Shown here in pieces: positions 4,001-7,000 of a stretch of DNA of 64,000 nt. This DNA comes from Branchiostoma lanceolatum (taxonomy: Eukaryota > Chordata > Leptocardii > Amphioxiformes > Branchiostomatidae): assembly GCF_035083965.1 (NCBI RefSeq), contig NC_089729.1, forward strand, positions 13,627,464 through 13,691,463, given 5' to 3'. Position 1 is the stretch's first letter. Each line of letters begins with the position of its first letter. The notes under the pieces are model-generated. The model did not search any database and was not told the origin of the DNA. It was given only the letters and a program-made list of their open reading frames with translations. The position numbers were made by a program, and so were the translations under genes.

Positions 4001-7000
4001 TGCAGGCAATGACAGAAATGCCACGGACATAGCTTGAACTACAAAACAAACAAACAAACAAACAAACAAACAAACAAACAAACAAAATCTTCATTAGACA
4101 TATCGTTCAGAAACTGAATGAGTTCACAAGAAATTTGACTATTACGAGGTATACCTCATTGCTTTATTTGAAGAAAGTGTCATATAAGAAAATTTATTTC
4201 CTCTTTCTTTTTGAAGATATGAGAATTACAAATGATGAAGATGATATAGCTCCTATTACAGCGGAGCATTTTCTAAAAGGAAATAACTTAATTTTTGAAT
4301 ATAGAAAAAAAACTGTTGCTGTTCAGAAGTAAGGTTCAAGGGTTCCAAAACATGGAGATTTCTTTATCAGACCAACCCTTTTCACAAACAAGAAGCTTGA
4401 AAAAAATGTATAAATAAATCTATGACATATTTTGTTCTTCAAAGATGCAAACAAATTAACAGTTGCAATTCTAATGAAAGCTGCTGGGGTCTAAAAATTA
4501 GCACATTGGTTACTGGAGACAAGGTCCCCTAAAAAGACAAGATTCATACAAAATCTGTCCGGAAATGTTTTGTTAATTCTGATTACGAGCTGTTCAGCGT
4601 CAACGTAATTGTAACCTCCTTGCCAGAGGTGGAAGTTCGATGTTTGGTGGCATGTCTGTCCGACGTGGCTTGTTGAAGGAGAACATTTTCATAGAGTTTA
4701 CAGTATCCTCACTTCCAACTCTTCCTACCTGTACGTTAACTTACTTCATATTCTATCCCACTTTATTGTTTTGTATTACTGAGTGCAAACTTATCATTTA
4801 GAAACCCGTCTCCTTCAACAGGCTGCGAAAAATTGTGATTTAGAGTGTGTTTTTGTCGAAAATCATATCATTTCGTAATTTTGCTTGAGTTTTGGTTAAA
4901 ACTGTTGCTCTTCTATTTCTATACTTACAAGAATGCTGCTTGCCTAGCTTCCAAAAAATTTAGTTCGGATGACTTATTTCTGTAATGGTGCTGTAATGCT
5001 ATGCAACTGTCCATGGCCAGGCTAGTCAGGACACGATGCATTGCATGCAGAAACAAATCTATCTTCCTATGATGGCACGGTGTTCTTTTCTTCTTCCTTT
5101 ACTGTGTGCACAATTTTTCCTTCTTATTATTGGAATGCATGAACATTCTTTTATTATTGATAGGCATTGCATGACGTCTAATTGTATGCATGTTGTTCGT
5201 TTTTCCTCCTTTGCATGCAGGGGTTCGGTTTTGTTACTTTCGCAAATAGTGCGGACGCCGATAGGGCAAGAGAGCAATTGAACGGCACAATCGTAGAAGG
5301 ACGAAAAATCGAGGTGCATGTTTTCCTATGAAGTTAATCTTTGTGTGCTTCTCTGTACACCTAAGTACTACTCTTTTATATATTGTACAAGTATATGCTG
5401 TGTATATGTATGATAGAATACCATAAGTGAGGCTAGGGCTTGCACTCAGCTATATTTGAGACACCACCTACTCTGCATAAGGATCCATCTTACTTTTACT
5501 GAAATACAAGAATGCTGTTCATATATAGAAAAACACTTCTTCTAAATGTAAAACAGGATACAAAATGCCTTCGCCCTTGAGGCTTCGCCAAAAAGCACAC
5601 CATTGTAAAGGCCATATTTCAGAAAAATTCAGTAATTCAGAAGAAAAAGTAAGATGTATCTATGACAACCAGCCCAAAGTTTGCAGTCCGTTATAAGTAA
5701 GTTGTAAGTGTTGCCATTCTGCCTCTTCGTTTCATTTCTCAAAGGACATTTTAGGCCCCCAATTCCACGCAAACGTAGCACGGTAGCGTACGTACTGTCG
5801 TTGAAAGTCGTATGTAAGCCGGTCTCTATATGGGGAGCTGATACGGCGGGTAAGTGCTTCCCCGACGCCTTTTCGGTTTCCCACCAATGCAAGTATGGCT
5901 CTGAAACCTCATTCGTGGCACCCTGTTTGTTATGACCTACATGTTCTGCACTTATATATATCAGCTTGTATATGTACAAAAGCCTCACAAAAACTGACTG
6001 TTTTAAAGAAAAAAAAGAGCGAAAAAAAGAAGAAAAGCTTGTTCTTTGTGGTGATGGTGGTGGTTACTAGTGGTGGTGATGGTGATGGTAGAAAAGTGCT
6101 GTGTATGGATTTTTGAGGCAAGTTCCTTAATAGAAAGTGTTGTTGCATGATTGTACATAATACCTCAGCCTGGTTACCATCCAGACAGTGCACCTTGCTT
6201 TGTAATCATTACTCCATAGAGGGTCGCATGCAGCCAAACACAGTTGTGTCCTCCTGTACTTCAATGTTCCACCATGCCAACATTGTCAAATGTCATGCTT
6301 CAGGTCAGCAAGTCAAAAGGGAGAAAAAAAAAACAAGACACGTTTTCTCGAACACATTTAGCTACTGTAGAAAAAGACCATGGCATTTTATTTTACATGT
6401 AAATGTGTGATTGGCTTCCATGTTTTTTCTCTGTTGACTCAATGTGCCAAAAAATAAATGTGGCTTTAAAAAAGAGCTAAATGTGAATTTGAAAAAAAAA
6501 AAAAATGTGAATTTGAAAAAAACAACTAAATGTGAATTTGAAAAACCCCAACAAAATGTGAATTCATAAAAGGAACTAAATGTTGATTGTTGATGTAAAT
6601 TTAGATGAAAAAGACAATAACTGAATTGGAATGTAGCAAAAGTAACTGAATGTGAATTAAAAAACACAAAAACTAAATGCAATACCTTTTTGACTTGCTT
6701 GTCCAAGGCACAAACTCTGACACTGAAGAAATTGTGACGAGATCACCTCTTAAAATTGTCAATGTCTCGACTCTCACCTTTCTTGTGCTCGAAGGCTGTC
6801 AGCTACGTATACTGTAAGCCCTGCAGCTGAGAACGATCGTCTCGGATGATAGCATTGAGAGAATGGTACAAAAATCCATCTTTGGCATGAGTTTTTTATA
6901 TTCGTCTATGGTTCAAGTGGTGTAAAAATTCCATCCATTTTGCCAGATATATTCACACATTTCCGACTCAGTCTGTACCCGCTGCATGTAGGCCTAACAT

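Follow-up and report, generated by a model that had tools for sequence, protein, structure and literature searches.

It is well established in mammals that splicing factors can control themselves by way of exons in their own genes, whereas the age of such feedback is less clear. The question is raised here by a stretch of 64,000 nucleotides of Branchiostoma lanceolatum DNA (the window), in which one RRM exon of an RBFOX-like gene is surrounded by copies of TGCATG, the DNA form of the Fox-binding word. The arrangement strongly suggests that the encoded protein throttles itself in the manner of its mammalian relatives.

When joined, ten exons on the + strand (positions 1071 to 14646) give a continuous open frame of 324 aa. 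The N-terminal region is encoded by 1071..1295 (225 nt, AG/GT ends), whose frame runs open into the next exon and in which no start codon was recognised; upstream 5' exons presumably lie outside the window. The RRM starts in 2244..2405 (162 nt), continues through 2743..2796 (54 nt) and 5221..5313 (93 nt) and ends in 9920..9977 (58 nt). The C-terminal region follows in 10460..10616 (157 nt), and the frame is completed by 11556..11598 (43 nt), 12169..12248 (80 nt), 13111..13168 (58 nt) and the last coding exon, 14602..14646. Eight of the nine introns have GT-AG ends; the ninth, which follows 9977, is of the GC-AG type, with the donor ACG|GCAAGT. Comparison of the RRM with that of RBFOX1 (PDB 4zka) gave 76 identical residues of 83 (E 6e-48). 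Within the 93-nt exon the identity is 27 of 31 residues. The best structure chain outside the Fox family, in which ASD-1 is included, reached E 1e-27, compared to 6e-48 for RBFOX1. The gene product has the single RRM of an RBFOX-type protein. At E 0.01 Pfam gave RRM matches only, and the C-terminal end may resemble that of the vertebrate proteins (RGGYxRFAPY). Judged by its sequence, the gene encodes an RBFOX protein, and since its RRM is nearly identical to that of RBFOX1, the same RNA word, UGCAUG, is expected to be bound.

Relatives with the same 93-nt exon were also sought in other DNA. Four RRM loci with 30-45% identity were found in 16 stretches of viral contigs, and the best 80 of 266 relatives on genome contigs, all of them bacterial or archaeal, had identities of 38-52%. 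None of these 84 was near enough for an RBFOX gene, so they were not used for motif conservation. Elsewhere in the window, a mitochondrial carrier exon was recognised on the minus strand at 22849-23385 (Pfam Mito_carr, 36 residues, E 8e-7), as well as a Sushi repeat at 38259-38648 (E 3e-10) and a TARSH_C domain (Target of Nesh-SH3 C-terminal domain) at 55375-55797 (E 3e-32). A minus-strand ORF of 1170 aa (43950-47462) with endonuclease/exonuclease/phosphatase and reverse transcriptase domains resembles a non-LTR retrotransposon and is preceded on that strand by a 286-aa ORF (47481-48341) with no Pfam match above the cut-off.

Both ends of the exon at 5221-5313 fall between codons (phase 0-0), and its 31 residues, from RNP1 (GFGFVTF) to the RKIE of GRKIE, supply the second half of the RRM. 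Joining 2796 to 9920 leaves the frame intact and open to the normal stop, with the loss of the 31 residues from RNP1 onward; the length of 93 nt, the skipping junction and the frame, all given in an earlier note on this DNA, proved right. The Pfam RRM_1 match drops from 66.7 bits (residues 111-177) in the full form to 22.2 bits (residues 111-146) in the skipped form, which is still above the cut-off of 20.7. In its 93 nt, its phase and its content the exon has the features of a FoxDeltaRRM-type exon, and its mammalian counterpart is the exon that is skipped to yield FoxDeltaRRM (PMC3126832, PMC5577181, PMC11380049).

On the + strand, TGCATG starts at 5042, 5136, 5168, 5187, 5212 and 5315, that is, six times in 279 bases (5042-5320), in agreement with the six copies within 280 bases around the RRM exon that had been noted earlier. 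Relative to the acceptor of the 93-nt exon, the copies lie at -179 (5042..5047, part of one TGCATGCAG copy), -85 (5136..5141), -53 (5168..5173), -34 (5187..5192) and -9..-4 (5212..5217, between the pyrimidine tract and the CAG), and the last one occupies +2..+7 of the donor (5315..5320, GAG|GTGCATG). UGCAUG is thus found both near and at the splice sites, as in an autoregulated RBFOX exon. Two branch-point-like matches were found, CTAAT at -40 (A at 5181) and TTGAT at -61, the former having the copy at -53 just 5' and that at -34 just 3' of it. The overlap of motifs with both splice sites, as first described, holds for the donor, where the motif takes in the T of the GT, but not for the acceptor, where it abuts the final CAG without covering it. 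Among the ten acceptors and nine donors of the gene that were examined, those of the 93-nt exon are the only ones with a motif (at -9 and +2), counting starts in the last 30 bases before an acceptor, or between 4 bases 5' and 20 bases 3' of a donor. Coding constraint was rejected as the cause of the two splice-site motifs, as both are wholly intronic. The only minus-strand matches in the cluster, at 5044 and 5214, come from palindromic TGCATGCA copies and add no sites, so that two of the six copies (5042 and 5212) are palindromic. The same two positions carry the only two TGCATGCAG copies on the + strand of the window. Positions 5041-5050 read TTGCATGCAG, which repeats the end of the true acceptor at a distance of 170 bases on its 5' side; one might guess at a decoy acceptor or an RBFOX anchor.

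The donor of the 93-nt exon (GAG|GTGCAT) had a score of 4.36 on an approximate matrix, the lowest of the eight GT donors (the next scored 5.97), and on the same matrix the GC donor at 9977 was lower still (3.67). Of the 1036 GT dinucleotides in 1-14650, 83 scored at least as high. The predicted U1 duplex at this donor (-5.4 kcal/mol) was the weakest of the nine, the next (-5.7) being only slightly stronger. Predicted RNA pairing does not favour access to the motifs: their mean unpaired probabilities were, in order, 0.18, 0.61, 0.16, 0.09, 0.43 and 0.25, four of the six lying below the average of 0.42 predicted over 4950-5400, and several motifs are buried in the predicted structure of 5030-5330. 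RNA folding was also considered as a rival, with the two palindromic copies (5042 and 5212) paired to each other, but in that structure the copy at 5042 sits in a local hairpin instead.

We regard it as quite likely that the 93-nt exon is a cassette exon repressed by RBFOX, giving negative feedback on RBFOX activity. Donors are recognised by pairing with U1, U2AF sits at the acceptor and the branch point takes part in the recognition of the intron. When abundant, RBFOX would fill the six UGCAUG sites: at the donor it would lie over +2..+7, inside the stretch that pairs with U1; at the acceptor it would cover -9..-4, the expected place of U2AF; and with the sites at -53 and -34 it would enclose a likely branch point. 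Recognition of donor, acceptor and branch point would be sterically hindered together and the exon would be skipped. Lacking the second half of the RRM from RNP1 onward, the product of skipping should not bind RNA, and as it keeps both flanking regions it could be dominant negative and damp RBFOX activity. Of the autoregulation proposed in the earlier note, the sequence bears out the identity of the gene, the equivalence of the exon, the in-frame skip and a layout fitting direct repression, while the skipped RNA and its control by RBFOX stand as predictions.

The cluster could also have no role in splicing: the exon would then be constitutive, and the motifs either an element acting in DNA or an accumulation of a self-complementary word. 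This would agree with the two palindromic copies and with the general abundance of TGCATG, found 73 times on both strands of the window against a mean of 47 and a maximum of 71 in 100 shuffles. Dinucleotide shuffling of the entire 64-kb window, repeated 500 times, gave at most three TGCATG per 279-base stretch, and three was also the largest count in 5000 shuffles of 4900-5340. If the density is taken from all 42 + strand sites of the window, those of the cluster too, the Poisson probability of six copies in one given 279-base stretch is 4.5e-8, or ~1.7e-6 after multiplication by the 42 starts, and a chance of about 2e-6 argues against a mere pile-up. The other 179 permutations of the letters of TGCATG reached at most four per 279 bases in the window. 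Among hexamers with fewer than 60 occurrences (those with 60 or more being left out), 26 others had at least six copies per 279 bases somewhere in the window, and all nine of the 26 places that were inspected were, by eye, tandem, repetitive or low-complexity. A tandem-repeat origin was rejected for the TGCATG cluster, as no tandem repeat was found in 4800-5600. The strand of the motif also bears on this explanation. The four non-palindromic copies of the cluster are all sense and none antisense (p 0.125), and in the gene as a whole (1071-14646) 14 sense-only copies were counted versus 4 antisense-only (p 0.03), compared to 19 versus 21 outside it (15431-64000; p 0.87). This bias rests largely on the cluster, since the 10 versus 4 copies of the gene 3' of it (5321-14646) do not differ significantly (p 0.18) and TGCATG is absent from both strands of the gene 5' of it (1071-5035). 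As far as it goes, the bias favours an action in RNA. The exon whose splice sites carry the motifs is also the very one that Rbfox regulates in mammals, and a cluster without splicing function appears improbable.

An effect on splicing might take another course. RBFOX could lower the inclusion of the exon without yielding mainly a dominant negative; instead, RNAs with cryptic exons or with retained flanking introns would meet premature stops and decay, so that the loop would act on the RNA level. Read-through past 5313 indeed stops after VHVFL, read-through past 2796 also meets a stop, and mammalian Rbfox3 also activates the cryptic exons 5* and 6* beside this exon, giving mRNAs that decay (PMC3126832). 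However, plain skipping is already in frame here and needs no extra exon, and we consider this outcome unlikely, though less so than a cluster without any role in splicing. Activation of the exon by RBFOX through the donor motif, which is of the downstream type, is the least probable of the explanations and hardly to be expected. RBFOX bound 3' of an exon can promote its inclusion (PMC5577181), but under the same positional rule five of the six motifs are upstream, on the side of skipping, and RBFOX on the sixth, which lies inside the donor, should collide with U1.

Repression of the 93-nt exon by direct blocking is the preferred reading, and it can be carried one step further, to a point where we see even chances. 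Fox-binding words may have been kept at donor and acceptor (GAG|GUGCAUG and UGCAUGCAG) from a time before the split of the vertebrate RBFOX paralogues, the suboptimal donor being the operator of the loop. If so, the repressor site would be lost with any change that brought the donor closer to the U1 consensus, and the pre-duplication gene would already have had the complete switch, in which donor, acceptor and branch point are blocked together.

Further copies of the motif occur near two other exons. The intron at 9978-10459, which has the GC donor, contains overlapping TGCATG at +89 and +93, and another copy lies at -73 of the exon 9920-9977. If this intron were retained, the frame would stop at once (ANGK-stop), giving an RBFOX without its C-terminal region, and a second self-regulated step is possible there. 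The 58-nt exon 13111-13168 has TGCATG at -109 and -100 (13002-13016) and at +82 (13250-13255).

In mammals, Rbfox3 represses exon 6 of Rbfox2, its alternative RRM exon, and the resulting product is called dominant negative (PMC3126832, PMC11380049). In rat brain, clones lacking the 93 nt (-93) were found, and consensus sites lie near that Rbfox2 exon (PMC5577181). The event was absent from one group of pancreatic tumours (PMC10730836) and showed no change in diseased hearts (PMC4971515); for mouse liver, more weight was given to how much active RBFOX2 is present than to the dominant-negative form (PMC9771820). A variant lacking the RRM is said to block the activation of splicing but not its repression (PMC5778076). 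The RRM-exon event in mammals is context-dependent, not general. The papers found for rbfox and amphioxus were, by title and start of abstract, not about the 93-nt exon. Similarly, among the matches listed, none described by title or start of abstract a non-vertebrate RBFOX with motifs embedded in the splice sites, which makes for a weak claim of novelty.

The closest known systems are exon 6 of mammalian Rbfox2 and its equivalents in Rbfox1 and Rbfox3, which likewise are 93-nt in-frame exons encoding the second half of the RRM. In the work of Damianov and Black of 2010 on FoxDeltaRRM autoregulation, Fox elements reportedly overlap splice sites in mammalian Fox-1 and Fox-2. The amphioxus gene differs from the mammalian ones in its six sites within 279 bases and in being possibly a single RBFOX gene, and its regulation is predicted. 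The consensus sites near the exon are a likeness shared with rat Rbfox2 (PMC5577181). In Drosophila, an equivalent alternatively spliced exon is stated to exist in Rbfox1 (A2bp1) (PMC3126832). The earlier suggestion that the amphioxus motifs would date the loop to before the vertebrate paralogues split is partly pre-empted by that exon, which already implied a great age of the exon itself. A word search of a Drosophila paper (PMC8742874) returned no RRM and no 'dominant negative', and its one 'autoregulat' was in a reference on MBNL1. In C. elegans, several Fox motifs jointly make the splicing of xol-1 sensitive to the dose of FOX-1 (PMC7787662), and in the loops of PTB, MBNL1 and SR proteins a splicing factor alters the splicing of its own transcript (PMC6884704, PMC5840707). 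The PTB and SR loops described there end in RNA decay, whereas the loop predicted here ends in an in-frame dominant negative. The amphioxus case therefore looks like another member of a feedback loop known in mammals, not a new kind of system, and its new element may be the layout of motifs embedded in the splice sites of a non-vertebrate gene. With motifs in both splice sites of a non-vertebrate RBFOX, a comparison of some hundreds of bases between animals would test the age of the loop directly; the gain is an evolutionary one, the mechanism having already been described in mammals.
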